Made by a program: the position numbers and the translations under genes. From Gammaproteobacteria bacterium (GTDB lineage Bacteria; Pseudomonadota; Gammaproteobacteria; Arenicellales; Poriferihabitantaceae), in contig WTGA01000067.1 of assembly GCA_011523765.1 (NCBI GenBank), positions 1 to 35,954 of the forward strand: DNA of 35,954 bases, written 5' to 3'. Under the pieces are notes generated by a model. That model did no database searches. It saw nothing but the letters and a program-made list of their open reading frames with translations, and had not been told where the DNA came from. Positions 1-35,954 of the stretch are shown here, piece by piece; the first letter of the stretch is position 1; every line of letters begins with the position of its first letter.

Positions 1-335
1 TCCCCCCGGATAAAATCCCTCACAACCCGCCGGATGGCGGACCCTCCAGGGGAAGAATGGAGTAAACTATTCCTGAGAAGGAACCTGGATACTGCAAAAA
101 CCCGAGCAACGCAAAACCCTCATTCGCGCCCGATGTTGCATCGCGCGGGCCATGGGAATAGAATCCATTGGTGGCCTGAAGCGATGGCGTCGCTCCATGC
201 AGGCCATGGTGAAACCCGTTTTCCGGCTGTCTGCCGATGGACCGGAAGCGGGGATCAAGACATCCTGCACGCCCGGATGAAACCACCCGGGTGAGGCGGC
301 CAGCATTCATCCGGATGAAACCCAGGTGAATGTCA
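1..335 (+). promoter_or_regulatory. Hairpin-rich leader upstream of creatinase, no gene
   Basis: I see no credible coding sequence in this stretch. It contains three consecutive potential stem-loops on the plus strand. The first pairs CCAGG (46-50) with CCTGG (84-88) and has an inner GAAT/ATTC stem (55-58 with 69-72). The second pairs GCCCGATG (128-135) with CATCG (139-143) and GGGC (147-150). The third pairs GGCCTG (173-178) with CAGGCC (200-205) around an inner AGCGA/TCGCT stem. It may be a structured 5' leader of the creatinase mRNA or chance pairing in GC-rich DNA. It matches no riboswitch class I recognise. Confidence 0.3.
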
Positions 336-1556: not shown

Positions 1557-1598
1557 GGATTCCGCCGCTGCGGACCCGTATGACCGGTGTTTTCCCGG

Positions 1599-1604
1599 TA
1601 TAAT
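1599..1604 (+). promoter_or_regulatory. Possible -10 box upstream of the DUF457 gene
   Basis: A perfect TATAAT lies in the creatinase/DUF457 intergenic region about 100 nt before the next start codon. I find no good -35 hexamer at 16-18 nt spacing, so this is weak. It would let the membrane-protein gene be transcribed separately from creatinase. Confidence 0.25.
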
Positions 1605-1702
1605 CCGGCCCGGTTCCGTTCGCAAGGTTCGGAAGGAACCAACACCGGTCCGGCCGGTCTCACACAGACCCCCGGATTCACTTTCGATTTTGAATAAACA
1701 AT

Positions 1703-2704: not shown

Positions 2705-2790
2705 GTTCACCGGCCTGCCGGGCATGGGCCCGGGGGTCTCCCGCCAACGGTTTGCGGGCCGCAATGTGCAGGCCGGTGTTCCGGTTGGCG

Positions 2791-3792: not shown

Positions 3793-5042
3793 GAATTGAA
3801 ACGATGAATGCCGAAAGGTTCAATATCGAAACCGGGGTGGCCGGCCGAGACCAGCTGTGCAACCAGTTTGCCCGTCGTCGCCGCCATGGTCAGGCCTGCG
3901 TGACCATGGCCAAAAGCGTAATACACGTTTCCAAACCGGCCGGAACGCCCGATGACCGGCAGCGAATCCGGGGTGGCCGGCCGCTGCCCCATCCATTTTT
4001 CTCCCCCCGTGTCATCCAGGCCCGGCAGGTATCGACGCGCGATCTCCACCAGCTTGTCGCTTCGACGATAGTTTGGCGGGGCCCGGAGGCCGGCAAATTC
4101 AGCCGCCCCTCCAATACGCAACCCCTCTCCAATGTTGGTCGCCACAAATTTCTCTTCCCCGAATATGACTTCACGATTCAGCCTGATGCCGGGTTTCGGC
4201 AAGGTCGTATTGTAACCCCGCTCGGATTCCAGCAACACGTTCTCCCCCAGTTGTTTGCAGAACTTCCCGGACCATACCCCCGCGGCAATGATGAAGTGGT
4301 CCGCGTGGACGGGTTCTCCTTCGCTCGTCGACAGGGTGTCCACCCGGGTGGCGGATGGATTCACCGAAGCGATTTCCGTTTGCCGGATCCTGCCGCCTGA
4401 CCGGCAGAAATAATCTGCGAGCGAAGTGGCCAGGCCATAGGGGTCCGGAGTGCTGCACCACTGCGGGGTATACATTCCGTACTGGGCGTTCCGTAGGGCC
4501 GGCTCGAATTCCCGGATTTCATCCAGGCTGTTCAGGACCTGCACGGCCACCCCCATGGACTGTTTCACCTCCCACTCGTACCGGTCCTTGTGCGCGCTTT
4601 TCCTTGACCGGTACACCGTGACGGCTCCGTTTTCCACAAACAGGTGATTCAGGCGGGTCCGGTGAAGAAGCGCACGCGTGTCGGTCATGCTGGACTTCAG
4701 GATATCCGCCAGCGCGTTCGCGGCCGCGGTCATCTGTTTCAATCCGCTGACTTTCCGGAAACGCCACAGCCAGGGAATCATCCCGGGGAAATGGGTCGGG
4801 CTGATGAACAGCGGTCCGCTGGGATCGAGCAGCCACCGGGGAACCTTCCAGAGTACTCCGGGCACCGACGCCGGCACCACATCGGTAAACCCGAACCCCC
4901 CGGCGTTGCCCCTGGAGGTCATGCTGCCGGGCGGTGCCGGGTCATAAAGGACCACCCGGTAACCCTGTTCCAGCAGGTGCAGGCCACAGCTGATCCCGAC
5001 GATACCCGCTCCGATCACGGCGCAATCCCGGGATTCACTCAT
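3789..5042 (-). CDS. FAD-dependent D-amino-acid oxidase/dehydrogenase, likely cis-4-hydroxy-D-proline oxidase
   Basis: DadA-like FAD enzyme of the DAO superfamily. In this setting it most likely oxidises cis-4-hydroxy-D-proline to 1-pyrroline-4-hydroxy-2-carboxylate. The dinucleotide-binding GAGIVG is at residues 11-16, with the acidic residue ending the second strand in VVLYD, and the C-terminal FAD-contact region reads GHGHAGLTMA near residue 385. The 417-aa length is normal for DadA-like proteins. It lies between the deaminase gene (113 nt gap) and the epimerase gene (4-nt overlap). A general D-amino-acid dehydrogenase is the alternative. The electron acceptor cannot be read from the sequence. 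Confidence 0.8.
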   Translation of the reverse strand: MSESRDCAVIGAGIVGISCGLHLLEQGYRVVLYDPAPPGSMTSRGNAGGFGFTDVVPASVPGVLWKVPRWLLDPSGPLFISPTHFPGMIPWLWRFRKVSGLKQMTAAANALADILKSSMTDTRALLHRTRLNHLFVENGAVTVYRSRKSAHKDRYEWEVKQSMGVAVQVLNSLDEIREFEPALRNAQYGMYTPQWCSTPDPYGLATSLADYFCRSGGRIRQTEIASVNPSATRVDTLSTSEGEPVHADHFIIAAGVWSGKFCKQLGENVLLESERGYNTTLPKPGIRLNREVIFGEEKFVATNIGEGLRIGGAAEFAGLRAPPNYRRSDKLVEIARRYLPGLDDTGGEKWMGQRPATPDSLPVIGRSGRFGNVYYAFGHGHAGLTMAATTGKLVAQLVSAGHPGFDIEPFGIHRFNS

Positions 5043-5155
5043 GGGCCGGCCTGCAGCGGGCCGGGAACCGGCTGAAGGAGCTCACCCTGAACGGGGCGTG
5101 GCCGGCGAAGGCGGGTTCCAGGCCGGGCATGGGGGTCCCTGTATCCTGCTCCGGT

Positions 5156-6037
5156 CTACAGCAGTTCTTCTGCGGCTTCCCGGAGCCGCGACAGCTCCTC
5201 ATCGGCCAGCGGCTGAACGGGACGGCGGCATTCCCCCAGGTCATGCCCGAGCAATCGGCACAATGCCTTCACGCCCGGGTTAAAGGGATGGTTCCAGACA
5301 AAATCATTCACCGGATAGATCCGGTGCCAAAGCGCCATCGCCTTGTCCCACTGACCTTCCCGGGCCCATTCGTACAACCGGACCGCCTCTTTTGGAATCG
5401 CATTGGATGTCCCCCAGAAACACCCTGCCGCATTGACCATGAGACCATGCAGCATCAGCGGGTCGGCACCGTTGAATACGTGGATACCGGCCCGGGTCAG
5501 TTGCTGGATGCGAATAAAATCCCCGGTACTGTCCTTCAGGTAGTTGATATTGTCGATGGCCATGAGCCGCCGGACAAAGTCCGGTTCCAGGTCAATGCCG
5601 GAATGAACCGGAATGTTATAGGCCATGATTTCCGTATTGACGGCCCGGGCAACTTTTTCATAGTGCTCGAATGTGCCTTCCAGGGTCGGCCCCTCAAAAT
5701 ACGGCGGCAACACCAGCAGGCAATCCGCACCCACCCCCTCGGCATGCCGGGCATACTCGATGGTCTCTTCCGTCATGACCGCCGAGACATGGACGATCAG
5801 CCTGGCCCTGCCTCGGATCTGCCCGGCAGCCAGTTCAGTGAGAGCCAGCCGTTCCTCCCGGGTCAGGAAGGAGAACTCCCCGGTCCCGCCGCAGATACAC
5901 AGGATGTGCACACCGGATTCGACCAGGGTGTCAATATGTCTTTTCTGGGCCGTTTCGTCGATGCCGCGGCCGTTCTCGGCAAAAACGGTACAAACCGGCG
6001 TGCAGACCCCCTTTAGCCGGTCACGGGTCTGTGTCAT
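5156..6037 (-). CDS. DapA/NAL-family lyase, likely 1-pyrroline-4-hydroxy-2-carboxylate deaminase
   Basis: A (beta/alpha)8-barrel enzyme of the dihydrodipicolinate synthase family. In hydroxyproline operons the member of this family deaminates 1-pyrroline-4-hydroxy-2-carboxylate to 2-oxoglutarate semialdehyde. The Schiff-base lysine is Lys168 in NYLKDSTGD, and the tyrosine of the catalytic motif is Tyr140 in AYNIP. The phosphate or carboxylate loop reads GGTGEF at about residues 50-55. The 293-aa length is typical. Its start codon overlaps the stop of the GST gene by 4 nt. It could instead be another DapA-family lyase. The neighbouring epimerase and oxidase support the hydroxyproline role. The next enzyme, 2-oxoglutarate semialdehyde dehydrogenase, is not in the window. 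Confidence 0.75.
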   Translation of the reverse strand: MTQTRDRLKGVCTPVCTVFAENGRGIDETAQKRHIDTLVESGVHILCICGGTGEFSFLTREERLALTELAAGQIRGRARLIVHVSAVMTEETIEYARHAEGVGADCLLVLPPYFEGPTLEGTFEHYEKVARAVNTEIMAYNIPVHSGIDLEPDFVRRLMAIDNINYLKDSTGDFIRIQQLTRAGIHVFNGADPLMLHGLMVNAAGCFWGTSNAIPKEAVRLYEWAREGQWDKAMALWHRIYPVNDFVWNHPFNPGVKALCRLLGHDLGECRRPVQPLADEELSRLREAAEELL

Positions 6038-6711
6038 GAATCTTTCTTATGGACCCGGGACGCGGTGGAATCGAATCGGGGACCGTCCGGGTAATACCGG
6101 TTCCATATCTCCCGAACCACCGGGCGGGCACAGACCTCCATGACCACCCTGGTCAGATTCCTGCGGTGCAGCAATACATCGTTTGCCCGCGGGCTCCACG
6201 TCACCATCATGGTCAGGTACGTGTCCGCAATGGACCGGGTGCTTCCCGCCAGGTACGACTGTTTGTCCAGTACCGATTCCAGCAGATCGAACCCGGCATT
6301 GATGTGTGCGATTGCACTCTTCCGGATTCCTTCCGCCCCGTCGATTTCCGTGGTAAACCGCTTGCTGTAATAATATCGCTGGTATCCCGCGTAGGGGTTT
6401 GTCGCCATGAACAGCAGCCAGCGATACGCCCGGGCCCTTTCCACCGATCCCGGGGCGGGCAGCAATTCCGCTTCCGGAAACGTTTCGGCCAGATGCAGGA
6501 CCATGGCGACCGACTCGGTGAGGACGGTACCATCGGGAAGAACCATGGTCGGAATCTGTCCCATCGGATTCATGGACCGGTAAGCCGCACTCCTGTGCTC
6601 CCGGTTCTCAAAATTAACTTCAACCAGGTCATAGTCCGCACCCGCTTCCTCCAGTGCCGCCTGGATCACAAACCCGGCGGTCAAGCTTGACCAGTACAGT
6701 TTATATCCCAT
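6034..6711 (-). CDS. Glutathione S-transferase family protein
   Basis: Cytosolic GST-like protein with an N-terminal thioredoxin-fold domain (residues 1-78) and an all-helical C-terminal domain. The N-terminus KLYWSSLTAG carries candidate Ser/Thr catalytic residues. The cis-proline segment GQIPTMVLPDG and the glutathione-binding LTESVAM are clear. The C-terminal domain contains IADTYLTMM, the usual N-capping region. The ATG at 6711 is preferred, since a GTG 9 nt upstream would place the GGAG Shine-Dalgarno inside the gene. It is the first gene of the hydroxyproline operon. That is an unusual partner, and its substrate is unknown; it may detoxify a reactive pathway intermediate, which is inference. 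Confidence 0.8.
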   Translation of the reverse strand: MGYKLYWSSLTAGFVIQAALEEAGADYDLVEVNFENREHRSAAYRSMNPMGQIPTMVLPDGTVLTESVAMVLHLAETFPEAELLPAPGSVERARAYRWLLFMATNPYAGYQRYYYSKRFTTEIDGAEGIRKSAIAHINAGFDLLESVLDKQSYLAGSTRSIADTYLTMMVTWSPRANDVLLHRRNLTRVVMEVCARPVVREIWNRYYPDGPRFDSTASRVHKKDS

Positions 6712-7121
6712 GATCTCCACACATTTTTTTCAGGAATCATATCGAATCAGGTGGCCCGGGGCGGGAGACCCCGCTTCCTTCCTGAACCGGTTTCAGCGGT
6801 CCGCCCAATGTTTGAATCCACGTTCCAGGTCCCGTTTGCGGGCTTCTCCGACGGTTTGCGTTCAACCGGTCTCCTGAATGATAAGCCATGCCGTTTCCCG
6901 GTTCTGTGGCGGAATGACTGGCACTTTCGTGTGGGCAAGCCGGATTCCCGGTCCCTTTATAACCCCTGCGACCATCCGTGTAAAGAGTGCCCGTGCCCGG
7001 AAGACAGCCATTTCCACCGGAAAGTGATTCCGGCCAGGCCGCGGTCAAAAGGCCGGATTTTCGGCCGGAAGGTTCCGGTCTGGAACCGCCCCCGGGCAAT
7101 GCGGTGATCTCCCACGGCGTT
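6712..7121. other. Intergenic region, promoter region of the hydroxyproline operon
   Basis: About 410 nt separate the GST gene from the methyltransferase stop codon. Open frames here have no recognisable protein content. The stretch must carry the promoter of the minus-strand hydroxyproline operon, but I cannot pick a convincing -35/-10 pair. No regulator gene is encoded here. Confidence 0.4.
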
Positions 7122-7955
7122 TCAGGCGGGCCGGACACCGGAAAGCAAACGGTAGGAGAACACGCCTTCCTGCAATCCGTGGTCATAGCTGATGGACGCT
7201 TCCATGAACTCCCGGGAGGCCTGGTTCACTCTGTCGGCCTGCGAATTCAGGAAGCAAAACAGCAACCAGCCTTTGTGGATCCTCCCGGTGGACTCCGCGG
7301 CCTCGGAGGACAGGTCCTGGTCCCGGATCTCCACAAATCCCGCTTTTTCCATGACGGCAAGCACCTCGCGCCATGGCTCAAGTGGCGGCATGCGCCAGCC
7401 GTGCTGCGCGGTGGCATGCATGGCTTTTTGTGCTTTGGACATCGTTTCACCGCTCAGGAGTCCTTCGAGTGCCCGCCAGTATCCTCCCGGCCGGAGTACC
7501 CGGCAGACGCCCCGGAGATAGGCGAGCTTGTCCTGTGCATAACAGAACGTCTCATGATTCAGGACCGCGTCGAAACTCGCATCGGCAAACGGCAGGTCCA
7601 TGAAGTCCCCGTAGTGGAACTCGACCAGGTGACCGACCCGGCGCTGTTGGGCATGTTGTGTTGCCACCGCGACATGAGATTCGCAGTTGGTCAACCCGGT
7701 GACCTGTACGCCATGGGTTTCCGCGAGCGTGATTGCCGTGCCGCCGACCCCGCAGCCGGCATCCAGCACCCGTTTCCCCGGCCGCAGACCGCACCCCTGC
7801 ACCAGGGTCTGGTTGGCCCGTTCCAGGCCTTCCCGATGGGTTTTGGTGTCCGGTCCCCACAGGCCGAAATGGCAGGCCAGCAAATCGCCGCCGAATTTTT
7901 CCATGCGCTCGGTCAAATCGGCGTAATGATCGGCAACCGATGTCAGCGTCTTCAT
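7122..7955 (-). CDS. Class I SAM-dependent methyltransferase
   Basis: A Rossmann-fold methyltransferase of the methyltransferase-11/25 type. Motif I is VLDAGCGVGG (residues 63-72), the acidic post-I region follows in VTGLTNCE, the motif II/III region is FYGDFMDLPF-like (HYGDFMDLPF), and CRVLRPGG is the usual post-motif III strand and turn. The substrate is not recognisable; the overall look resembles small-molecule and sterol/tocopherol-type methyltransferases. The ATG at 7955 is chosen because GGGGGG lies about 8 nt upstream and homology-like sequence begins there; a frame open to 8042 would add 29 atypical residues. It is transcribed divergently from the PhyH operon. Confidence 0.8.
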   Translation of the reverse strand: MKTLTSVADHYADLTERMEKFGGDLLACHFGLWGPDTKTHREGLERANQTLVQGCGLRPGKRVLDAGCGVGGTAITLAETHGVQVTGLTNCESHVAVATQHAQQRRVGHLVEFHYGDFMDLPFADASFDAVLNHETFCYAQDKLAYLRGVCRVLRPGGYWRALEGLLSGETMSKAQKAMHATAQHGWRMPPLEPWREVLAVMEKAGFVEIRDQDLSSEAAESTGRIHKGWLLFCFLNSQADRVNQASREFMEASISYDHGLQEGVFSYRLLSGVRPA

Positions 7956-8342
7956 CTCACAATCCCCCCGTTGGAACCCGTGGACCATGATACAACAATC
8001 CTGTCCGGTTTGCGGACGGGAACCGGATCGATTTCCGGCCACCGCCCGGTCAGCCCCATTTGGTCGTGCCGCGCTTGTAATGAGGAAGAAAATCCGGGTT
8101 GGGGATGAAAAACAGCGGAAAGGCCGCTTGAACCGGCTGTGAATTCAACCGGTTGCGGTCACCGAAAAACGCTCGTGAAAGCGGATTCACCCCGTTTTCC
8201 CCGGAACCCGGTCGCCCTCCCATCCGGCGGCCTCACTGGCAGACCCCGCTTTTCCAGCCGGGAGAACCGGCACCGTTCGCATGAAAAGATGATAGAATCC
8301 GGGCAGGCCTGTTGCCCTGCTCTGAAGTCCGAAAAATCAACC
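7956..8342. other. Divergent intergenic region
   Basis: The 387 nt between the methyltransferase start and the PhyH start should hold both promoters. Apart from the possible gene remnant at 8050-8205, I see no repeat, RNA or clear promoter. Confidence 0.35.
8050..8205 (-). pseudogene. Possible 3' remnant of an unidentified gene
   Basis: On the minus strand this stretch reads as a coherent protein tail of about 50 residues ending FLPHYKRGTTKWG and a TGA stop at 8052-8050. The composition and codon choice are like the neighbouring genes, but there is no start codon and no body of a gene upstream. I do not recognise the family. It sits between the divergent methyltransferase and PhyH genes. It may be the C-terminal fragment of a gene deleted from this locus, or a chance open frame. 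Confidence 0.3.
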
Positions 8343-9212
8343 ATGACCACATTGGCTGAAACCGTCGAAATCCCGGATTCGGGAATACCCGGCAAAGCGG
8401 GAAGGATATCCCGGTCCCAGATCGACGATTTCCGGCGGGACGGGGTCATTTGCCTGAGGGGCCGGTTCGACATTGAGTGGCTGGACAAACTTTCACTGGG
8501 AATGGAAAAAAATTTCAATGACCCGGGGCCCTATGCCACCCGGTACACCCGGCCCGGTGACCCGGGCGGGTTTTATGATGATTACTGCAATTGGCAACGC
8601 AATACCGAGTACCGGGAATTCCTGTACCGTTCACCGGCGGCAGAAATTGCAGGGAAACTCATGCAGTCCAATTCGGCACGTATTTACCATGAACATGTCC
8701 TGGTGAAGGAACCCGGAACCCGGGAAGAAACACCGTGGCATCACGACATGCCTTACTACGGGGTTGACGGCGATCAGGCCTGTTCCATCTGGCTTCCCCT
8801 GGACCCCGTTCCGGCAAACGCCTGCCCCGAATTTGTTGCCGGGTCCCACCGGACAGGTGTCCTGTACTACCCCCGGTTCTTCAGCAGCGGCGAAAACTAC
8901 CTGCAGGGCATTCATGGATTTGAACCGGTTCCGGATATCGATGCCCATCGTGCAAGCTACCCTATCGTGTCCTGGGCCCTGGAACCCGGGGACTGTATTG
9001 CCTTTCATATGCGAACACTCCATGGCGCACCCTCGACCATTGGGTCCACGTCAAAACGCCGCGGGTTCTCCACGCGATGGATCGGGGATGACGCCCGCTT
9101 CGCCTCAAGACCCTGGCAAACCTCCCCGCCCTTCCCGGAGGTGAATCTCTTCCATGGAGATGAGATGGCTCACCCCAGCTTTCCCGTACTTTGGTCCGAC
9201 GGCGCACCATGA
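8343..9212 (+). CDS. Phytanoyl-CoA dioxygenase (PhyH) family protein
   Basis: Predicted Fe(II)/2-oxoglutarate-dependent oxygenase. The metal-binding HxD is His133-His134-Asp135 in PWHHDMPYY. The distal histidine is His227 in MRTLHGAP, and the 2-oxoglutarate-binding arginine lies in RRGFSTRW. The FVAGSH segment is typical of PhyH proteins. The length is 289 aa. The start at 8343 is chosen because family-like sequence begins a few residues later; the frame is open to 8139 but upstream residues look non-coding. The Shine-Dalgarno is weak. It overlaps the amidotransferase gene by 4 nt (ATGA), so the two products probably act together. The substrate is unknown. Confidence 0.8.
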   Translation: MTTLAETVEIPDSGIPGKAGRISRSQIDDFRRDGVICLRGRFDIEWLDKLSLGMEKNFNDPGPYATRYTRPGDPGGFYDDYCNWQRNTEYREFLYRSPAAEIAGKLMQSNSARIYHEHVLVKEPGTREETPWHHDMPYYGVDGDQACSIWLPLDPVPANACPEFVAGSHRTGVLYYPRFFSSGENYLQGIHGFEPVPDIDAHRASYPIVSWALEPGDCIAFHMRTLHGAPSTIGSTSKRRGFSTRWIGDDARFASRPWQTSPPFPEVNLFHGDEMAHPSFPVLWSDGAP

Positions 9213-9916
9213 ACAATAAAATCATTCTCATCGACCACCACGACAACCCCGGAGACGATCGGGTCGCGATTCACCTCGACAAAACCGGGTTTGAACTGGA
9301 CCTGCGGTGCCCATTCAAGGGGGATGCCCTGCCTGACATTGACGACGGTACCGCCGGCGCGGTCATTTATGGCGGCGCCCAAAGTGTCGGAGACCTGGAA
9401 CGCCTGCTATTTCTGAGAGATGAAATCGACTGGATCCGCAGGGCAATCAAAATCGACCTGCCGCTGCTTGGGATCTGTCTCGGTGCCCAGCTGATTGCCC
9501 ATACGCTCGGGGCAAAGGTGCGCCCTCACAAGCAGGGATTGTGTGAGTTCGGCTATTATGAAGTCAGTCCCACTGAAAATGCCGGGGACTGGTTTTCCGG
9601 AAAAATGCTGGTTACCCAGGCACACTACGAACAGTTCGAACTGCCGGACGGTGCGGTGCTGCTTGCAACCGGGAAGACCTTTCCGAATCAGGCGTTTCGA
9701 TACCAAAACAATATTTTTGCATTGCAGTTTCACCCGGAAGTCACGGCGGATATTTTCAAACGATGGCAGAACTCGGACTGGGCATTTTTCAATGAGGCCG
9801 GAGCCCAGACACGCGAGGAGCAGGATGCCGTCATCCGGCAGGCCGACCCGGTCCAGGAACAGTGGTTTCATGGTTTCCTGGACCGATTGTTCCTCCGTCC
9901 CGCCATTTCCCACTAG
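9209..9916 (+). CDS. Class I glutamine amidotransferase-like protein
   Basis: A stand-alone class I (triad) glutamine amidotransferase domain resembling the glutaminase half of GMP synthase. The nucleophile is Cys90 in GICLGAQ, and the His/Glu pair is His175 and Glu177 in FHPEV, so the triad is complete. YGGAQSVGD near residue 54 is the expected oxyanion-side loop. The 235-aa length fits a single domain with no synthetase part. The ATG at 9209 overlaps the PhyH stop codon, which indicates coupling. Stand-alone members either hydrolyse gamma-glutamyl compounds or supply ammonia to a partner. Which applies here is not visible. Confidence 0.85.
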   Translation: MNNKIILIDHHDNPGDDRVAIHLDKTGFELDLRCPFKGDALPDIDDGTAGAVIYGGAQSVGDLERLLFLRDEIDWIRRAIKIDLPLLGICLGAQLIAHTLGAKVRPHKQGLCEFGYYEVSPTENAGDWFSGKMLVTQAHYEQFELPDGAVLLATGKTFPNQAFRYQNNIFALQFHPEVTADIFKRWQNSDWAFFNEAGAQTREEQDAVIRQADPVQEQWFHGFLDRLFLRPAISH

Positions 9917-9928
9917 CAGGCCCGGTGC

Positions 9929-10345
9929 ATGAGAACAGCCAGAGAAGTCGTTGACGATTATTACGTTTTCCTGAAGGACCGCGACCGCGAACAGTTGCTC
10001 GGCCTGCTGTCGCCCGATATTGTGGTCACCTACCACGGCCAGCCGGGCCAGCTGCCCTGGGCGGGCCGGTTTCACGGCATTGATGGCTTTGACCGGTTTT
10101 TTTCCCTGGTCAGGGAGCACCTGAATATCGTTGACATATCGGTGATCGACCGTATCAGTACGGAAAACAAGATGATCAACCAGTGTGAAGGCCTGTGGGA
10201 ATACAAGGAGTCGGGGTACATCGTCAAGGGCAGCATGATCAACGTGTTTACCGTGGTGGACGGGAAAATTTCGGGATACGATGTCTACGCGGATACCGCT
10301 GCGTTCGTAGCCGGACTGAATTCATTGCCGGAGCCGCTTTCGTAA
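9929..10345 (+). CDS. SnoaL-like / NTF2-fold protein
   Basis: A 138-aa protein with the look of the SnoaL-like NTF2 superfamily. The N-terminal helix REVVDDYYVFLKDRD is followed by LLSPDIVVTYHG and the substrate-pocket region WAGRFHGIDGFDRFF. A beta-rich C-terminal half includes VFTVVDGKISGYDVY. Such proteins are small isomerases, hydrolases or binding proteins, with no universal catalytic motif. It is 12 nt downstream of the amidotransferase gene and so is the third gene of the PhyH operon. Its role there is unknown. Confidence 0.7.
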   Translation: MRTAREVVDDYYVFLKDRDREQLLGLLSPDIVVTYHGQPGQLPWAGRFHGIDGFDRFFSLVREHLNIVDISVIDRISTENKMINQCEGLWEYKESGYIVKGSMINVFTVVDGKISGYDVYADTAAFVAGLNSLPEPLS

Positions 10346-10677
10346 GTTGCCCGTCGCGCCGCAAACCCTGCCGGGGCGGGAATATGGGCCCGGGTTGCGT
10401 GCCGGAAATGCCCATGGGCCGGATTCACAGGGCGCGCTGCTTCCACCACGGGATTCCGGCAGGACACGAACAGGGAGAATTCAGGGAAAGTGTGTTAGAC
10501 TTGGTTGGGCAATTACTGGTTGAACGGTCTCCTGCAGGCCAGACAAAATCGATTCAGGCCGGAACCAAGACCCGCTGCGACCCGTATCCCGTGAAAATGA
10601 GATGCCATTGATTCAGTCTATGCCGACACCGTCCCGATCATAAACCTGCCCGTATACAACCGCTTCCAGGCATTCCG
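10346..10677. other. Intergenic region, no gene seen
   Basis: These 332 nt separate the SnoaL gene from the DUF4149 gene. The left half is GC-rich and could include a terminator. The right half is more AT-rich and probably contains the promoter of the membrane-protein gene. I could not assign a specific promoter and I see no repeat or RNA. Confidence 0.3.
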
Positions 10678-11106
10678 ATGTTAAGTATGACCGCCATTCT
10701 CTCGACGATCTTGCTCGGAACCATGCTGTTTTTTGCAGTCATCGTCGCACCTTCCATCCACAAGAGCCTGGAGAAGGAAGAAGCGCTGACATTCAGCCGG
10801 TACCTGTTTCCCAGATATTTCCTGTGCGGCATTGTCCTGTCCGTACTGGGAATCGTCTTCTCTGTCCTGGATGGCTCCTATACCTTCATTTTACTGATTG
10901 TGATCCTGCTTGGCTTTGTTTACAGCCGGCAGATACTGTTGCCCAAAATCTCGAAAGCGAAAGACCAGTGGGCCACCAGCGAATCCCCCCAGGACAAGGC
11001 GCGATACAAATCCCTGCACCGGCGAAGCGTCATTATCAACGCGACCCAAATCACATTGCTCGCCATTATTGTCATCGCCACGCAACAGCCCTGGGTGGAC
11101 CTGTAA
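10678..11106 (+). CDS. DUF4149 (TMEM205-like) membrane protein
   Basis: A small integral membrane protein with four hydrophobic segments at about residues 3-23, 45-63, 66-84 and 118-138. The pattern FFAVIVAPSIHKSL, then SRYLFPRYFLCG, is the DUF4149/TMEM205-like signature. The length (142 aa) is typical. The family has no established function. A second in-frame ATG lies 9 nt downstream of the one chosen. The small DUF1289 gene follows 28 nt later on the same strand. Confidence 0.7.
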   Translation: MLSMTAILSTILLGTMLFFAVIVAPSIHKSLEKEEALTFSRYLFPRYFLCGIVLSVLGIVFSVLDGSYTFILLIVILLGFVYSRQILLPKISKAKDQWATSESPQDKARYKSLHRRSVIINATQITLLAIIVIATQQPWVDL

Positions 11107-11134
11107 CGCATCCCGCTCTTTCGAAACACCGGGC

Positions 11135-11386
11135 ATGCCAACCAACCGTTCAGGTCGAAGGAATCATCGCCGTCGCAGGCCCCGTCGACCGAAACCGTTC
11201 GATACCAGTGTCCCCTCGCCGTGTTTGTCGGTCTGCCGTTTCGATGGCGAACCATTCTGCCGGGGGTGTTATCGTGATGCCGATGAAATCCGTGAATGGA
11301 TCATCCTGAACCGGAAACAGAAACTGGCCATACTCGAAAAAACCGCCCAACGCAGGAAGGCGGAAACCGACGAACATTTCTGGTGA
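11135..11386 (+). CDS. DUF1289 family cysteine-rich protein
   Basis: An 83-aa protein whose C-terminal 60 residues match the DUF1289 pattern: PSPCLSVCRFDGEPFC, RGCYRDADEIREW, then a basic helix. The four cysteines (CxxxC and CxxC spacing) look like a metal or Fe-S site. The N-terminus (about 20 residues) is strongly basic, rich in Arg and His. The ATG at 11135 gives a normal-length member, while the longer open frame upstream overlaps the DUF4149 gene and is not protein-like. The family is widespread in proteobacteria and has no known function. Confidence 0.75.
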   Translation: MPTNRSGRRNHRRRRPRRPKPFDTSVPSPCLSVCRFDGEPFCRGCYRDADEIREWIILNRKQKLAILEKTAQRRKAETDEHFW

Positions 11387-11862
11387 CACGGAAACCGCTC
11401 CCACTGGTTTCACGGGAGCCCTGCAATCCTGACAATGGCGCCTCCGGATGCGCATCGGAAACCGTCATCGCAGCCCGGACATACGGCCCTTGAATGGCCA
11501 GCGGTTCATCCTCCCCGGTCTTCCGAACCCGAAAAGGACCTGATCCGAACCTTCTGGTCCCCTCGGCAATCGCAGCGTGCCCTGTCCAGAAATCCCCTGC
11601 CGCATTCTCTTTGTGGAGGAGGAATACCCTGTCCGGGTATTTCAGTAAAAGTTCATCGCGCCTGCACGGATAAAACCCGGACCCCGCCTCCAACGGGTGG
11701 TCGTATTTTTTCCTTTTCAATCGTCCCATCCACTGCACGGCCCGTCGGAACGGTTCACCAGACCTTCCTTATGTTGGCCTCCCCCGGCCAACCCGCAAAC
11801 CGGCAATCCCTTTTTCTGTCCAGCCTTCCCCCTTGGCAGGCGCTGCCGCTTCCCCTCCTGCC
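11387..11862. other. Intergenic region, no confident gene
   Basis: This 476-nt gap lies between the convergent DUF1289 gene and the PhyH gene of the hut operon. A minus-strand frame (11738 to 11301) has a protein-like piece (RDELLLKYPDRVFLLHKE) but degenerates and runs antisense into the DUF1289 gene. It may be a decayed gene. I see no repeat or RNA. Confidence 0.3.
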
Positions 11863-12696
11863 TTATGTCCGGCCACGACCCGTTTCGGGCAATCGGGGAT
11901 GCCCGATTTCAAAATCATTCCTGCCGCAGACATCGTTGCCCCGAACCAGGAACAACGGCCTGCTGCCATAGTCATGGCTTGCATTGTCCGCACCCATGGA
12001 TGCACCGAGTTGGTGGTCATAATGACTGCTGGCCGGCATCAGGCGAACCACCAGCGCCGCTCGTCGATTTCCGGTCCGGTTCGATCTTGATCCATGGATC
12101 ATGTAGACATCATGGCAGGAAACCTGCCCGGCCTCGATGATCAGATCCTGTGCCGTTGACGGATCAAAGTATTCGGCATCACAGACATCATGGATCGTGT
12201 ACCCCGGATTCTCTTCGCGATGATGCGGATACAGCCTCTTCTCCTTATGGGACCCGGGAATAAAGCGCATGGGCCCGTTTTCCGTCGACACATCGTCCAG
12301 TGCAATCCATAAACTCAGGGTTTCCAGTGGTCGTATGGGATAGTAATCGCCGTCCTGGTGCCAGGGCGTCCCCTTTCCGCAAGCGGCAGGCTTTCCAAAG
12401 ATGGTGGTGCCCCACAGGATGATATCTTCACCGATTAACCGTGCGGCCATGTCCATCAAATCGGGATGGGTGGCAAATTCCAGCCAGTCCGACGAACCCG
12501 TGACACCCTGGGCACCGGGAACCGGAAGATGCACCCCCAGCAGGAAATCCGATTCCAGGTGGGCGTTCCGGTCCAGCAGTGCATCATAGGCGCGGCGCAT
12601 TGCCTCCAGAATATCCCCGGGCAACCGGTAATCGGGGACGAGATATCCCTTTTCGCGGTATTGCGCAACCTGTTCGTCGCCGATCCGTGCATTCAC
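11863..12696 (-). CDS. PhyH-family Fe(II)/2-oxoglutarate dioxygenase in the hut operon
   Basis: Predicted phytanoyl-CoA dioxygenase-like oxygenase, about 277 aa. The metal-binding His-x-Asp is in [10 protein letters not shown] (His113 and Asp115 from this start), followed by [14 protein letters not shown] and FIPGSH, typical of PhyH. The distal His and the 2-oxoglutarate Arg are in [15 protein letters not shown]. The GTG at 12696 overlaps the hutH stop codon (GTGA), the usual arrangement for coupled translation; a TTG at 12705 is also possible. It is the last gene of hutF-hutH-phyH. The placement suggests a substrate related to histidine or urocanate, but that is inference. It is only distantly similar to the other PhyH protein in the window. 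Confidence 0.8.
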
Positions 12697-14264
12697 GGCC
12701 GGCAATCCGGATTTTCAGGCAAATGGTGGTGCAGTGCGGGCACCATGCCGTCACCCACTGCAGTGACCAGTGCACCCGTCCTGACCAGGTCGGTCGCCCT
12801 GGCAATCTCCCCGCCGATGTAGCGGTCATGATCCAGCCTGTCCACAACCTCCCGAACCCGGTCCATCACGCGCTGCAGGGCCGCGCTGGTTTTCACCGGC
12901 CGGCGGAATTCGGCCCCCTGGGTGGCAGCCAGCAATTCGATGGCGATCAAATGGGCCAGGTTCTGGTTCATTTCCATCAGTCGCCAGGCCCCGTGGCAGG
13001 CCATGGATACATGATCCTCCTGGTTGGCACTGGTCGGTGTCGAATCGACGGAACACGGCGCGGCCTTGTGCTTGTTTTCCGACATCAATGCCGCAGCGGT
13101 GATCTCGACCCCCATAAAACCGGAACTCAAGCCCGGGTCCGGAGACAGGAAAGGCGGCAATCCATGGTTCAGGGCCGGGTCAACCAGTGTGGCAATGCGC
13201 CTTTCGGCAATGGCCCCCATTTCAGCAATGGCCAATGCATTCTGGTCCGCCGCAAACGCAACGGGTTCCGCATGGAAATTGCCTCCAGACATGATCCGGC
13301 CTGTCTCAACCATGACCAGCGGGTTGTCGGTGACAGAATTGGCTTCAATCTCCAGGGTCGCGGCCACCTGGCGAAGTTGATCCATGCAGGCCCCCATCAC
13401 CTGTGGCTGGCATCGAATGCAGTACGGGTTCTGCACCCGTTCGTCGCCTTCCCGGTGGGAGTCCCGGATGGCGGACCCTTCCAGCAATGACCGCAGCGAC
13501 CGGGCCGCATCCATCTGGCCCCGGTGTTTTCGGAGCCGGTGAATTTCACCCTGGAAAGGAACGGTCGAGGCCATCAGCGCATCGCTGGACAATGCCCCGG
13601 CAATCAATGCCGTCTGGCAAGAACGCCAGGTGTCAAACAGGGCCGCGAGCGCCAGAGCCGTGGACACCTGGGTGCCATTGATCATGGCCAGCCCTTCCTT
13701 GGGGCCGAGCACCCATGGCTCCAGGTTATTTTGCCTTAACGCATCCGCCGCATCCAGGACACGGCCCTGGAACCGCACCGGCCCCTCACCAATCATGGCG
13801 GCGGTCAAATGTGCGAGAGGGGCCAGGTCTCCCGAGGCCCCCACCGACCCCTTCGCGGGAATCACGGGCAGAATACCGTTGTTCAGCATCGCCTGCATCA
13901 ACTCGATCAGTTCCCAGCGAACACCCGAGGCCCCCTGGCCAAGTGAAGACAGCTTCACCAGCATGATCAGCCGGACAATCTCATCCGGCAGGTCCGGCCC
14001 AACCCCGCAACAATGGGACAGCACCAGGTTCCGTTGCAATTGAACGGTTTGCCCTGGTGCAATCCGGGTACTCGAGAGCTTGCCGAATCCGGTATTGATC
14101 CCATAAATGGCGGTGTCCTTCCGGACTGCAGCGGATACGATCCCGGCTGCGGCATCCACCACTGTCCTGCAATGACGGTCGAGCCGGACGGACCTGGCTG
14201 ACCGGTAAACCGATTCCAGCAGATGCAGGGGAACCCGGCCAGGAATGATGGGGGTGCGGATCAT
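12693..14264 (-). CDS. hutH: Histidine ammonia-lyase
   Basis: Converts L-histidine to trans-urocanate and ammonia, the first step of the Hut pathway. The Ala-Ser-Gly that cyclises to the MIO electrophile is Ala143-Ser144-Gly145 in [14 protein letters not shown]. The catalytic tyrosine is in IYGINTGFG (Tyr54), the NGTQ motif is in MINGTQVS, and [14 protein letters not shown] carries the substrate-contact arginine. The 523-aa length is normal. It lies 6 nt after hutF and overlaps the dioxygenase gene by 4 nt. All key residues are present, so this is the functional lyase, unlike the variant paralogue at 23421-24932. Confidence 0.95.
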
Positions 14265-30938: not shown

Positions 30939-31216
30939 GTGATCGTCGGCTTTTCCGGCAAGAGGACAAAGCGTTCTACCGGGACGGTCGGGTTTCGGCC
31001 TTCTCCGGCTTTTCCCGCAGCACCTCGCGCAAGCTCGACCCGCTTGATGCCGCCACCCGCCTAAGCGACCCGGCAGGACCCAGCAATCGTCTGAAGGCGT
31101 TCAAGGGTCGTCGAGGGGCCGTGGAGCCTTCGCATCAACGACCCATGGCGGATTGGCTTCAAATGGCCCGAAGGAGGCTTTGGGCGACCGAAGTCGAAAT
31201 CATCGATTACCATTGA
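30939..31216 (+). pseudogene. Broken higB-like (RelE superfamily) toxin gene
   Basis: Pieces of a HigB-type mRNA interferase can be read only by changing frame at least three times. From the GTG at 30939 the first frame gives MIVGFSGKRTK. A second frame gives GRVSAFSGFSR, LDPLDAATRLSDPAGPSNRL and KAFKG. A third gives WSLRINDPWRIGFKWPEGG. The tail EVEIIDYH with stop at 31214-31216 is back in the second. The order is that of intact HigB proteins (about 92 aa). The gene cannot make a functional toxin. It is followed 13 nt later by the broken higA. Confidence 0.75.
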
Positions 31217-31229
31217 GAGGAGACTTGAC

Positions 31230-31504
31230 ATGCGTGACCCTATTCATCCCGGCGAGACGCTACACGAGGATCTCGACGCACTGTGCATGAGTGAGGCGGA
31301 GTTGGCGCGGCAGATCGAAGTGCCGGTGAACCGCATCACCGGCGACACGGCCCTGCGCTTGGGCATTTTTTCGGCACGTCGGAGGGGTTCCGGGTGAACC
31401 TCCAGATACTCCATGAACTGCGTCTTGCGGAACAGAAGAACGGCACGACAATCGCCCGACTGCCGACATTGGGTGCGGGAATGGACCTGCATGCCACCGG
31501 TTGA
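31230..31504 (+). pseudogene. Broken higA-like antitoxin gene (XRE family)
   Basis: From the ATG at 31230, with AGGAG 5-10 nt upstream, the frame reads MRDPIHPGETLHEDL and SEAELARQIEVPVNRIT, the HigA N-terminus and first half of the helix-turn-helix. It then jumps directly to DTALRLG, so roughly 10-15 residues of the family's loop (INGKRGIT-like) are missing. After a run of six T the frame is lost. The other frame carries FFGTSEGFRVNLQILHELRL and ends at 31504. Both an internal deletion and a frameshift inactivate it. Confidence 0.8.
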
Positions 31505-31599: not shown

Positions 31600-31725
31600 A
31601 GACGGATCAAGGCAGCAGGCCTTTTCGTGCCGACTGCCCGGGGCGATGAGCCAACCGGTGTTTTTGCGCTCGGTGTCGAATTCGATGAATACGGCTTGGA
31701 GCCTCGTGTGGTGTTGCGGTTATGA
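31600..31725 (+). pseudogene. Possible 3' end of an unidentified gene
   Basis: A plus-strand frame reads RIKAAGLFVPTARGDEPTG, then VFALGVEFDEYGLEPRVVLRL and a TGA at 31723-31725. The tail looks like real protein, and its stop overlaps the next ATG by 4 nt (ATGA at 31722), as in an operon. There is no start or body of the gene upstream; the region before it is the broken higA. I do not recognise the family. Probably a C-terminal relic of a gene that preceded the restriction-type gene below. Confidence 0.4.
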
Positions 31726-31958
31726 CTGAAGCACAAACCAGCCTCGATCTCGGGGGAAGACCAACCGCCTGTGCTATTCTTGACCGCATTCGTTCCGAGA
31801 GCTGCCACGAGTTCGAGAAGGGACGCTGGTTCGAGCAATTGTACATGTGCATCGCGCTTGAGAAGCTTGAATTCAAGACAGACGAAAAAATTGCATTAAG
31901 CGGATTTCCGTTTGTCCATTGCATAAGGTTGCCACGGCAGGGTGCTCGGCGGCGATGA
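31722..31958 (+). pseudogene. Truncated 5' end of a restriction-type helicase/methylase gene
   Basis: The first 55 residues (to about 31886) resemble the N-terminus of large type ISP-like restriction or DEAD-box helicase proteins: ILDRIRSESCHEFEKGRWFEQL, then LEKLEFKTDE. The family would continue for a thousand residues or more, but similarity stops abruptly at 31886. The frame runs 23 unrelated residues to a TGA that overlaps the DruA-like ATG. I read this as the stump of a gene cut off where the next operon's upstream region was joined. A small intact ORF in the operon is a less likely alternative. Confidence 0.5.
31891..31927 (+). promoter_or_regulatory. Candidate operator/promoter of the DruA-like operon
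   Basis: TTGCATTAAG (31891-31900) is repeated as TTGCATAAG (31919-31927). Between them lies the dyad AAGCGGA-TT-TCCGTTT (6 of 7 positions paired). It lies immediately upstream of the DruA-like start and begins exactly where the truncated gene's similarity ends. WYL-type regulators of defence operons bind similar inverted repeats, but none is encoded here. This is a suggestion, not a proven site. Confidence 0.35.
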
Positions 31959-34027
31959 TCGTACCGATTTATCCCCCTTTGGACGGTGAAGCAGCCGAAC
32001 GATTTCACGGATTTGTGATGAAACTCGCAAGTGCCCAGCATATGCGAAGAAAGGAAGGCATGACTCGTGCGCTGGAGGCAGAGATTGGCTGGTGCCAGTC
32101 GGAGCAAGGCATTAATAAGAGGCGGTTAGCTTACGAGGCGTGTGTCAGGGTTCTATACGACCTCGCACGGCTGCGCTGGCGTATCGTCGAGCAGGGGTAT
32201 GGATTCGCCTTGGAGAATCGAAAGGAAAGAGGAGGAGGAGGTCCGACAGAGGAGATTGTAGTCAAGAAAGAGATATTACGTAGCGAATTGCGGTCTGTCG
32301 TCGACGAGCAAAAGCGCCAACCTGCCGTGCTGAAGTTTATTGCCCGCATGGAGGACGAGGACCGTTTAGGTCAGCGCAGCGTGAAGTTGCTCATGGCGGA
32401 TGGGGCGGAGTTGGCAGCAAGACTAGCGCCTGCGCGGGACCTCGAAGGAGAAAAAAGGATTGCGGCTCTGGGTGAGGCCGTCAAACCCTATCTTCAGGAA
32501 GCAGATGGCAGTATGGATCTAACGACAGGACGCCGGCTCCGCGAGATCTGGCGCTATTTTCGGTACAGCTGGTCGATACCTCAGGTGCCTACGCCGGGAC
32601 GGCAGTTGCTCTATCTCGTGAGGGACAGTGCCCACCCTGCGCATCCGGTGATCGGTATCGCCGCGCTCAACAATTGTCCTCTCGAAATGGGCGAGCCACG
32701 CGAGAGATATATCGGCTGGCATCTCTCAGCGATAACAGAACGATTTGGTGCCGCTACGAGGAATGGCAAGGCAGCATTGGAGGAGGAAGTTCGATGGTTA
32801 GAACGGCAGTTGGAGGCGTCGCTCTCCGAAATCGACTGGAGCAATCTCGTAACTGTGAAAGAAGTCGAATCTCCCGATGACGCCGTCGTCCGCCGGCTGG
32901 TGCTGCGCAGTCAGGAGTTTTCGAAGCTGCGCGAAACCCTACTCAAGGAAATCGCCGACTCGACGGAAGATACATTCGATGCTAGCCTTTGGGACGATAC
33001 GAACGCGCCCCCGGTCGACGACGACATCCTTAGGCTCGAGGCCAAGGCATCGGTCGATACTCGCATGCACATTGCCCGCCGGCAACTGGTGGCGAAGAAG
33101 CGGGCACTTGCATTGTCACGTCTACTGTCGGCCCGGCTCGCGATTGCCAAGCACCGAACAAAACTCACCAATCCGGAGACGGCGTCGACGACGCTTGAGC
33201 GAGACGACTTGAGGTGTGCAGTGAACATTGTGCTGGAGGCACTGAAAGGACGACGGGCTGGCGCTAACCTGCTTGAAATCACGACCTGTGGAGCGATCGC
33301 GCCGTACAATCGAATTCTCGGCGGCAAGCTAGTTGCCCTGCTGATGCTCAGTCCGCAAATTAGCGCTGACTATCAGCGACGTTATTCCCATCCTTCGATC
33401 ATCTCCTCGCAAATGAAGAATCGTCCGGTAATTCGCGATAACGCGCTCGTTTATCTCGGGACGACCAGCCTCTATGTCCACGGTTCGAGCCAATACAACC
33501 GGCTACGTCTGCCTGCTGGCACGATCGCACCGGACCAGGAAACTATTCATTACAACGCGATCGGTCAGACCTCGGGTTTCGGGACGGTACAGTTCTCATC
33601 CGAAACAAGCAGGGCGATCGAGGCCTATCTTGCCCACGATGAAAAATTCAGGGACGTGAACAGCATCTTCGGGGAGGGGACTAGTCCGAAGCTCCGCAAG
33701 CTAAAGATGGGCCTACACAAGCTGGGATTCGATCCCAACAAGTTGATCCAGCATCGGCATCACCGCTTAATCTACGCAGCCCCGTTGTTTCCGAAGGCTC
33801 GGGACTGGCTACAGGAACGCACCTCGAAACTACCGGACTATGTCGCGGTGCCTGAGAGCTACGAGGACGGAACCGAACGCATAGCATCGTATTGGCGTCG
33901 GCGCTGGCTCGCGAGCCGGCTTCGTCATCGGTCAAGTATGGCTGCCTTGCCACGGGACATTTTCGTGCCCCTAGGCAAGACCAGCGAACAAGCACGAGAG
34001 AATCGAGCGGATGAACGAGGGGGATAG
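31955..34027 (+). CDS. DUF4338 (DruA-like) protein, candidate anti-phage defence component
   Basis: A 690-aa protein with the two halves of the DUF4338 domain found in DruA of Druantia defence systems. Block one (about 196-258) is IWRYFRYSWSIPQVPTPGR, YLVRDSAHPAHPVIGIAAL and RERYIGWH. Block two (about 440-550) is ITTCGAIAPYNRILGGK, ALLMLS, GTTSLYVHGSSQYNRL and TSGFGTVQFS. A helical insertion of some 180 residues separates them and the N-terminal 190 residues are also helical. Its end overlaps the ATPase gene by 17 nt. The start is uncertain: the ATG at 31955 lacks a good Shine-Dalgarno. The role in defence follows from family and context. Confidence 0.7.
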   Translation: MIVPIYPPLDGEAAERFHGFVMKLASAQHMRRKEGMTRALEAEIGWCQSEQGINKRRLAYEACVRVLYDLARLRWRIVEQGYGFALENRKERGGGGPTEEIVVKKEILRSELRSVVDEQKRQPAVLKFIARMEDEDRLGQRSVKLLMADGAELAARLAPARDLEGEKRIAALGEAVKPYLQEADGSMDLTTGRRLREIWRYFRYSWSIPQVPTPGRQLLYLVRDSAHPAHPVIGIAALNNCPLEMGEPRERYIGWHLSAITERFGAATRNGKAALEEEVRWLERQLEASLSEIDWSNLVTVKEVESPDDAVVRRLVLRSQEFSKLRETLLKEIADSTEDTFDASLWDDTNAPPVDDDILRLEAKASVDTRMHIARRQLVAKKRALALSRLLSARLAIAKHRTKLTNPETASTTLERDDLRCAVNIVLEALKGRRAGANLLEITTCGAIAPYNRILGGKLVALLMLSPQISADYQRRYSHPSIISSQMKNRPVIRDNALVYLGTTSLYVHGSSQYNRLRLPAGTIAPDQETIHYNAIGQTSGFGTVQFSSETSRAIEAYLAHDEKFRDVNSIFGEGTSPKLRKLKMGLHKLGFDPNKLIQHRHHRLIYAAPLFPKARDWLQERTSKLPDYVAVPESYEDGTERIASYWRRRWLASRLRHRSSMAALPRDIFVPLGKTSEQARENRADERGG

Positions 34028-35621
34028 TCGATTGGCGAGGGTTGATGGAGCAAAAGACGGTGCCCGATTGTGGCGCACGCTTGCTTCGGCAGGCAGAGAA
34101 GCAATCGCGGAAGCATTGACCGAAGAAGATTTCGAGCGGCTACATATCGAGAGCAACATCGAACGGTTTCTCGGCGAGCAAGTACGGGCGGGCAGGAGCG
34201 TTGTTGTGACCGGGAATGCCGGCGATGGAAAAACGCATCTGCTACGGCGCGTGAAGCAAGATCTCGAGAGTGCCGGCGCAGTCGTGGTTGAGGACGCGAC
34301 CGCTAAAATGCGGGGCAGCGATCCAAGTCCGATCCTAGAAAAGTGGCGCAAGGCCATCGAAGACGGGCAGCCCTTTTGCCTCGCAGCGAACGAGTATCCT
34401 CTTTACCAGATGAGGATGGCCGATATGTCGGCCTCGCACTTGAAAGAAGTCAGGCGACAATGTAAGAACCGCCTCGCTTACGGGGACGATGAAGACTCCG
34501 AGCGTGCTGGTGACGTTGTGGTTATCGATCTTAGTCTTCGGAACCCGCTTGGCGGAAATTTCTTCGATTCCATGCTGAACAAATTGCTCGACGACGACGG
34601 ACTGAGGGCAGTCTTGAGAAGTCCGGCGGAATCAGTTGTGCGAGGTAATGCCGAGCGTCTCGCCCATCCCCAAGTGCGCATCCGACTGAGGGCGCTGGCC
34701 GAGCGCATGGTTGCGCTCGGCCATAGGGCCACGCTGCGAGAGATGTGGATTCTGTTCGCACGAATGGTGTTCGGAAAGGGAAATCACCGCGACTACCAGC
34801 GGACAGAATGGTATTCGGAGATTCTATTTCAGCAGGACGACCGCTTCGACCTGACGGAGACATTACAGGCGGTTGATCCCGCCGAATGCAGCCATCCAGT
34901 GTGGGATGCCATGCTCGATTCGCGTGCACCCGAGGTGCGGAAAGGATGGGTGTTGAGTGCCCCAGTGCCAGCACCGCATCCGACGCTCGACTGGGAGCAT
35001 TTCGCTGCACTGAAGCGCCGGTTCTATTTCGAGCACGAGAAGGGTGAAGAAGTGTTCGATCTAGCCGATGAGGATGCGAAGGAGTTCGAGAATCTCGTGC
35101 AGGGCAAAAAGGGATCAAGCCGGACGCTGGTTGCGAAACTGGTCAAGGCCATCAACTCTGCATACTGCCCGATGCACTTCGATTCGCGTGATCAGTACCT
35201 GTATCTGTGGAACGGTCATCGCTTTCACGAGCAGCCGTCGCGGTCCTTCATCGCGGTCGAACGTGTGGCAACGGATGATCTGGTCACCGAAGTTCCACGG
35301 CTACCAGAGCGTTTGGCAGGGTGCTTCGATTATCGTCCTGACCACATCGCATTGACGGCCCACAGGCGCCGTGGAACGCCACGGCTGAGAATCGATTTTC
35401 CGCTTTGGCAGACACTGCGTCGTCTGTCGCGTGGTCTACCGCGGAAGTTGATTCCAGAGCGGGACGTTCACCGACTAGATGCCTTCCTACAGAAGTTCGA
35501 GGCGCGCTCGCCAGATAAGAGCGACACCCTGTGGTCGGTCCACCTCGAGAATCTCGAACTCATTCAGGTCAACCTCAGTACTGACAGGAACCGCTTCGAG
35601 AGGGTACACCGCTATGGCTAA
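34011..35621 (+). CDS. P-loop ATPase in the DruA-like operon
   Basis: A 536-aa protein of unknown family with a clear Walker A, GNAGDGKT (residues 68-75, Lys74), followed by HLLRR. A Walker B-like VVVIDLS lies at about 169-175, and PFCLAANEYPL (about 121-131) resembles the sensor strand of AAA+/STAND-type NTPases. The C-terminal two thirds is helical with FEHEKGEEVFDLAD near 340. No nuclease, helicase or membrane motif is seen. It overlaps the DruA-like gene by 17 nt and the third gene by 8 nt, so the three are probably translated together. Confidence 0.75.
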   Translation: MNEGDSRLARVDGAKDGARLWRTLASAGREAIAEALTEEDFERLHIESNIERFLGEQVRAGRSVVVTGNAGDGKTHLLRRVKQDLESAGAVVVEDATAKMRGSDPSPILEKWRKAIEDGQPFCLAANEYPLYQMRMADMSASHLKEVRRQCKNRLAYGDDEDSERAGDVVVIDLSLRNPLGGNFFDSMLNKLLDDDGLRAVLRSPAESVVRGNAERLAHPQVRIRLRALAERMVALGHRATLREMWILFARMVFGKGNHRDYQRTEWYSEILFQQDDRFDLTETLQAVDPAECSHPVWDAMLDSRAPEVRKGWVLSAPVPAPHPTLDWEHFAALKRRFYFEHEKGEEVFDLADEDAKEFENLVQGKKGSSRTLVAKLVKAINSAYCPMHFDSRDQYLYLWNGHRFHEQPSRSFIAVERVATDDLVTEVPRLPERLAGCFDYRPDHIALTAHRRRGTPRLRIDFPLWQTLRRLSRGLPRKLIPERDVHRLDAFLQKFEARSPDKSDTLWSVHLENLELIQVNLSTDRNRFERVHRYG

Positions 35622-35954
35622 TCCGCCTCGATTCGGCGCTCAAAAGAGTTCGCGCACAGTCGCGCTAAACCAGGTGCACGGCGCGGCTCTCGGTTATCAA
35701 CCCTTCCGCATGAAGCCCGTTCACTTCGCCACGAACTTTCTGTTGGCGTTAACCGGCCGCTACTACAGACTCGAATATCTGAACAAGGCTTCGGTGCCGA
35801 AGACGGCGCCAAAAGACAAGAAAAATTGTTCTGATGAATATCCGTCGGATCGGCTTTATCCGCTGCTGATCGATCGCGGCACATTGGATCCGTCGGTGGG
35901 CCTAGGAGGTCGTCCGAGAACAGGGCTTCAAATCGCCCTGACCGTCCCGGTCCC
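35614..35954 (+). CDS. Unknown protein, third gene of the DruA-like operon (3' end outside window)
   Basis: An ATG at 35614 overlaps the ATPase stop by 8 nt (ATGGCTAA) and opens a frame that stays open to the window edge, giving 113 codons so far. The visible part begins MANPPRFGAQKSSRTVALN and includes FRMKPVHFATNFLLALTGRY, YPSDRLYPLLIDRG and GGRPRTGLQIALTVPV. I recognise no domain. The tight overlap and open frame make it a real gene of this operon. Its size and any catalytic motif must be read from sequence beyond the window. Confidence 0.65.
   Translation, partial: MANPPRFGAQKSSRTVALNQVHGAALGYQPFRMKPVHFATNFLLALTGRYYRLEYLNKASVPKTAPKDKKNCSDEYPSDRLYPLLIDRGTLDPSVGLGGRPRTGLQIALTVPV

Follow-up and report, generated by a model that had tools for sequence, protein, structure and literature searches.

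The question raised by this locus is whether a gene for a DruA protein (DUF4338), followed by genes for a P-loop ATPase and a third protein, belongs to a Druantia-like system or to a different one. The window analysed, 35,954 nucleotides in length, is the entire contig C143 of a draft genome (G000; 3.09 Mb in 177 contigs, 96% complete). The original prediction had described three co-directional plus-strand genes at its right end, overlapping by 17 nt (genes 1 and 2) and 8 nt (genes 2 and 3), as a translationally coupled operon in a defence context, and had left the ATPase without a recognisable family and the third protein unknown. The coordinates and overlaps were confirmed (Table 1), with the frame of gene 3 open from 35614 to the contig end, and the coupling and the defence context are judged right; the second and third proteins can now be placed. 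The probable answer is a four-gene anti-invader operon, composed of DruA, a DndF/SspF-like protein, a DndG/SspG-like protein and a giant DndH/SspH-like protein with a RuvB motor, of which the copy in this genome is apparently broken.

Table 1. Coordinates of the features in the window and in the related loci discussed in the text
Feature	Sequence	Coordinates	Strand	Description
Gene 1, druA (DUF4338)	window	31955..34027	+	690 aa; PF14236, PADLOC DruA
Gene 2, dndF/sspF-like P-loop NTPase	window	34011..35621	+	536 aa; Walker A GNAGDGKT
Gene 3, dndG/sspG-like 5' fragment, interrupted	window	35614..35900	+	~95 codons; 71% identity to L013 protein 3
End of multi-copy repeat, probably insertion-sequence terminus	window	35901..35954	.	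contig breaks here inside gene 3
Intact operon	L013	DruA ends 5887; NTPase 5884-7494; protein 3 to 8845; protein 4 8847-13625		protein 4, 1592 aa
DruE1, DruD-like and unknown genes	L132 (Halalkaliarchaeum plasmid), also L129, L130	307-8796		divergent to DruA-FGH operon
Truncated protein 4, HATPase_c_4 gene, SWIM/DUF6880 gene	L126 (G002:C98)	1149-7869
Viral DruA two-gene context	L057	8513-11950
Viral DruA two-gene context	L058	8237-11881
Viral DruA two-gene context	L059	8736-11950
Viral DruA two-gene context	L060	7826-11914
Compact DruA/DUF4338 relative	L069	9518-10732		~400 aa
Compact DruA/DUF4338 relative	L091	9518-10729		~400 aa
Compact DruA/DUF4338 relative	L121	9476-10669		~400 aa

The closest relative of the locus, L013 in a Bryobacterales MAG (genome G398), was found by a scan of genome contigs and carries the operon intact. 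Its DruA backs the ATG at 31955 as the druA start (MIVPIYPPLDGE / MIVPIFPPLDGE), and differences from it per codon position amount to 0.17/0.12/0.46 for druA and 0.16/0.08/0.38 for the NTPase gene. From this pattern the two complete frames are judged to be real genes under constraint, and chance open reading frames are ruled out by the codon-position substitutions together with the homologues. The predicted departure of codon use from that of the metabolic genes holds but is modest (GC3 of 0.62-0.64 in the defence genes, 0.68-0.73 in the metabolic genes). The surroundings had also been described as a graveyard of restriction and toxin-antitoxin fragments; the latter part stands, with HigBA-like remnants in shifting frames read by eye at ~30940-31500 upstream of druA, while the short 'restriction' fragment at 31722-31958 had no family match in profile searches.

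It is clear that gene 1 encodes the DruA protein expected of Druantia type I, as had been proposed: it matches Pfam PF14236 at 1.6e-30 in two stretches, and the PADLOC DruA model at 3.9e-124 over residues 60-667. The large helical insertion anticipated between these stretches is present in the AlphaFold model (pLDDT 81, built from 12 sequences) at about residues 243-438, with strands flanking it on both sides. In a second structural search with this model GNAT enzymes lead, among them GCN5, Eis2, PanZ, AtaT and KacT, over residues 176-640 and thus spanning the insertion, at Z scores of 6-7.8 that all lie below 8 and are moderate. Foldseek returned no GNAT match at E < 0.001 in PDB and, across PDB and BFVD, a single match to an uncharacterised giant-virus protein; sequence searches of PDB with DruA and with the NTPase yielded nothing useful. 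There is thus moderate support from the model for a GNAT-like fold split by a helical insert, in line with the published assignment of DUF4338 to the GNAT domains (PMC10853773). A compact relative of about 400 residues, without the helical insertion, is found in three of the loci in Table 1, and this form (phrog_19197, function unannotated) is common in marine viral contigs.

The remainder of the unit is related to a different group of defence systems. Gene 2, 80% identical in L013, matches the PADLOC model for SspF at 6e-18 and that for DndF weakly, at 2e-5. A profile of six NTPase homologues (A1), compared with MAD6 and Dnd/Ssp F cores drawn from loci L049-L052 (PADLOC labels L049 as MADS6-8-like and L052 as Dnd/Ssp-like), aligned over nearly its full length (hhalign 99.8%, E 5.8e-28). 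By these profile matches gene 2 is placed as a divergent DndF/SspF; a novel ATPase was rejected on the SspF match and the hhalign result. Gene 3 is present in the window for just ~95 codons, and its fragment aligns with residues 3-99 of L013 protein 3. In the relatives protein 3 matches SspG (6.4e-5 in L047 and 2.9e-12 in L011) and also MAD7, and in profile-profile comparison with MADS and Dnd/Ssp modules it aligns at hhalign 96.6%, E 4.8e-10, so that a DndG-like protein can be recognised there. A DUF1998 helicase had been considered as a possible next gene; instead, the intact relatives carry as gene 4 a nuclease joined to a motor, of DndH/SspH-like type. The N-terminus of protein 4 aligns with a DndH-type profile over 554 columns (hhalign 93.4%, E 2.5e-7) with the nuclease motif IEVK in register, and a DndH core with its REase is recognised in the relatives by profile, the eight-domain architecture aside. 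The PADLOC DndH models gave no match to protein 4, and the DndH link is significant by profiles alone. Genes 3 and 4 of the intact relatives are accordingly named here, from their profiles, DndG/SspG-like and DndH/SspH-like. The profile matches of proteins 2, 3 and 4 therefore make the unit DruA plus F, G and H, and the locus is classified by homology as a DruA-coupled DndFGH-type restriction operon rather than as Druantia, its function being a predicted one. The genome of L013 also encodes a second protein 4 (L043, on G398:C52), 34% identical and with a HerA/VirD4-like C-terminus.

The label 'Druantia-like' had been proposed with the reservation that a locus without DruE would be a different system, and the reservation proved well placed. 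With the DruE1 model at E <= 1e-10, DruE1 was not found in G000 or in the related genome G037 (99% complete), nor in two Hymenobacter and one Halobaculum plasmid records, all complete, nor in two viral records. DruE-like matches do occur elsewhere in genomes G398 and G002, and three closely related haloarchaeal plasmids (L011, L129 and L130) are an exception, in that next to druA, in divergent orientation, they carry DruE1 (E = 0 in the one plasmid scanned), a DruD-like gene (1.7e-6) and one unknown gene. These neighbours give some weight to the view that the locus is a true relative of Druantia type I, with the F-G-H genes as accessories and DruE located elsewhere, yet six loci fuse DruA to the NTPase and not to Druantia proteins, and with DruE1 not found in the genomes and records listed above this view is quite improbable. 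On these results DruE is not a constant part of the unit; apart from the DruD-like gene of the haloarchaeal lineage, no DruB, DruC or DruD was seen within the intact loci. Druantia proper was rejected on the DruE1 result, and of the original label the DruA protein is the part that survives, the other genes being Dnd-type. No co-encoded phosphorothioation genes were found either; DndC (TIGR03183) has no match in G000, G037 or G002 and does have one in G398.

Relatives of the NTPase were sought without reference to DruA, in plasmids, genome contigs, 398 genomes of the phylum and viral contigs. DruA lies directly upstream of, or is fused to, an A1-type NTPase in all 14 loci, from bacteria, haloarchaea and viral contigs, although L011, L129 and L130 are close relatives of each other. 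The druA gene is separate in the window, L013, L011, L012, L129, L130, L131 and Hymenobacter HDW8 (where it crosses the plasmid numbering origin and is unannotated), and is fused to the NTPase gene in L047 (the locus of G037), L048, L055, L056, L061 and L009. More distant NTPase matches (L049-L054) show no DruA, and at least some of these are MADS or Dnd/Ssp loci. A tblastn search of phage records with the NTPase and a scan of viral contigs with protein 4 returned nothing useful, and a survey for protein 4 in the phylum of G398 found it in one genome of 396, G398 itself.

These data bear on what DruA may do. DUF4338 fused to DndF has been read as a GNAT back-up effector and not as a modifier (PMC10853773), which counts against a self-marking role. 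On that reading DruA would be a back-up effector or regulator that acylates host tRNA or protein when the restriction complex is blocked, and discrimination would come from DNA structure or another cue. It draws on the GNAT fold, on structural matches that include the toxins AtaT and KacT, on the position of DUF4338 in a DndF slot also taken by further candidate effector domains, HEPN and NERD among them (PMC10853773), and on an operon without modification genes. Set against it are the presence of DruA in 14 of 14 loci, while other DndF N-terminal domains vary, and a similar DruA beside a large ORF in four viral contigs with no F-G-H genes seen nearby; it is a possible but doubtful explanation. 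A role of DruA in self-marking or gating appears somewhat more likely on balance and is favoured. In the four viral contigs (L057-L060) DruA is 650-720 residues long and directly follows the large ORF, with no F-G-H module seen in the vicinity; in L057, the sole one of the four tested, that ORF encodes a GHKL/HSP90-type ATPase (PF13589, 1.2e-19).

The end of protein 4 sets the window's own clade apart. Haloarchaeal, Hymenobacter and viral members carry FtsK on gene 4 or on the gene after it, and residues 3-1108 of L013 protein 4 can be aligned (1.7e-31) with the haloarchaeal protein, the rest of which is FtsK. The remainder of the L013 protein differs: over residues 1259-1577 it matches RuvB models nearly end to end (PRK00080, 26-326/330, 6e-19; TIGR00635, 6-304/305, 8e-16; both NCBIfam), Pfam finds the P-loop domain of RuvB and, with a weak match, its winged helix, and the profile searched against PDB has RuvB proteins as its best matches (5e-13). 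In the window's clade the PD-(D/E)XK-like nuclease motif of protein 4 is therefore followed, at the C-terminal end, by a complete RuvB-like AAA+ domain with a winged helix, as seen in three sequences: L013, G037 and the fragment remaining in G000. All three keep the nuclease D, E and K, and all three keep Walker A, Walker B, sensor 1, the arginine-finger position after sensor 1 and the sensor-2 region; none of them bears the C-terminal HerA/FtsK ATPase of DndH, whereas the sister groups have FtsK. G037 and L013 share this architecture and are 40% identical along the entire protein, with 50% in the RuvB part. In the window's clade a RuvB-like AAA+ motor takes the place of the DndH-type one, and the grouping of the window, L013, G037 and G002 as one clade (support 100/100) fits a single swap. 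An AlphaFold model of nuclease plus motor reached a pLDDT of 40 (three sequences) and was not used.

The hairpin of RuvB docks on RuvA, and the corresponding stretch is ~7 residues shorter in the RuvB-type protein 4. In G002, protein 4 ends in the linker just ahead of the RuvB domain, so not every member of the clade has that domain; G002 may be able to do without the motor, or its copy may have decayed. (Behind the truncated gene in G002 lie a HATPase_c_4 gene and a SWIM/DUF6880 gene.) The shortened hairpin and the G002 protein would suit a RuvB domain that acts as a DNA-junction sensor or clamp rather than a motor, or a chance fusion without a role, but the retention of every ATPase motif and the better conservation of the RuvB part than of the whole protein between L013 and G037 make this unlikely. 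Taken as a motor, the RuvB ring would point to branched or replicating DNA as the site of action. Searches of the open-access literature for RuvB together with DndH, and for SspH, phosphorothioate and RuvB together, found no paper, RuvB is unmentioned in the main text of PMC10853773, and no earlier description of a replacement of FtsK/HerA by RuvB was found in that literature. The DruA-DndF coupling itself is not new, because DUF4338-DndF fusions were listed in 2024 (PMC10853773).

The copy in G000 is itself incomplete. Gene 3 had been supposed to run off the contig edge, an explanation rejected here since a repeat interrupts the gene: similarity to L013 halts at ~35898, at the onset of a 54-bp repeat, and this terminal repeat of 54-55 bp, 96-100% identical, recurs in contigs C87, C154 and C94, at their ends or close to them. 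The rest of gene 3 has no other match in G000. Of gene 4 the final ~670 codons remain on contig C104, at 75% identity to L013, and they begin right after a different 54-bp repeat with ~20 other copies. For the ~3.8 kb in between, from gene-3 codon ~97 to gene-4 codon ~914, G000 yielded no match. The operon is probably dead here, a relic left by mobile-element interruption and loss of its middle, to judge from the repeats; alternatively, the draft assembly may lack the piece in the middle. The RuvB-type protein was found in 0 of 59 further genomes from the same family and order, which is consistent with horizontal acquisition.

DndFGH damages DNA without a self mark, and MADS couples a homologous F-G-H-like module to methylation. 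With the DndFGH/DptFGH systems that carry a DUF4338-fused DndF (Rakesh, Aravind and Krishnan 2024, PMC10853773) the locus shares the F-G-H order, a P-loop protein, a DndG-like protein, a giant with an REase, the tie of DUF4338 to DndF, and the lack of any need for linked phosphorothioation genes, which the 2024 definition of DndFGH does not require; it differs in that druA can stand alone, in its far diverged sequences, and in the RuvB that takes the place of the HerA/FtsK motor in the window's clade. SspFGH, which damages unmarked DNA and is toxic without its marking genes (PMC8092258), is likewise a three-gene damaging module, and SspF, SspG and SspH are the best PADLOC matches; unlike it, the operon here has DruA instead of SspBCD, with no DndC family match in G000 or G037, and RuvB rather than FtsK in the window's clade. 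MADS mad6-8 offers a homologous module with a partner other than phosphorothioation, but no methyltransferase was seen in the DruA operons and their NTPase lacks kinase domains. Druantia type I shares the DruA family protein and, in one haloarchaeal lineage, the DruE1 neighbour, whereas G000 and G037 have no DruE and the effector genes are Dnd-type.

One plausible course of events is that an F-G-H-like complex would bind DNA, that its RuvB-type ring motor would travel along it, perhaps at forks or junctions, and that the PD-(D/E)XK domain would cut invader DNA by analogy with DndFGH and SspFGH; for DndFGH, DNA nickase and translocase activities are described (PMC11662687). DruA, which occupies the position where phosphorothioation or methylation genes normally stand, would most likely mark self DNA or gate the complex, and in G000 the whole would probably have been inactivated by mobile elements. 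A more specific version would have DruA label self DNA with an acyl-type mark and the RuvB-driven DndH-type nuclease recognise branched invader DNA, at forks and junctions, instead of intercepting it by an FtsK/HerA pump; it is tentative and rather unlikely as it stands.

In the broader context of defence, DruA connects families that are usually kept apart, Druantia on the one hand and Dnd/Ssp/MADS on the other. A recombination motor can replace the motor of a DndH-type machine, and the 'HerA/FtsK capture' may belong to a broader rule of motor swapping.
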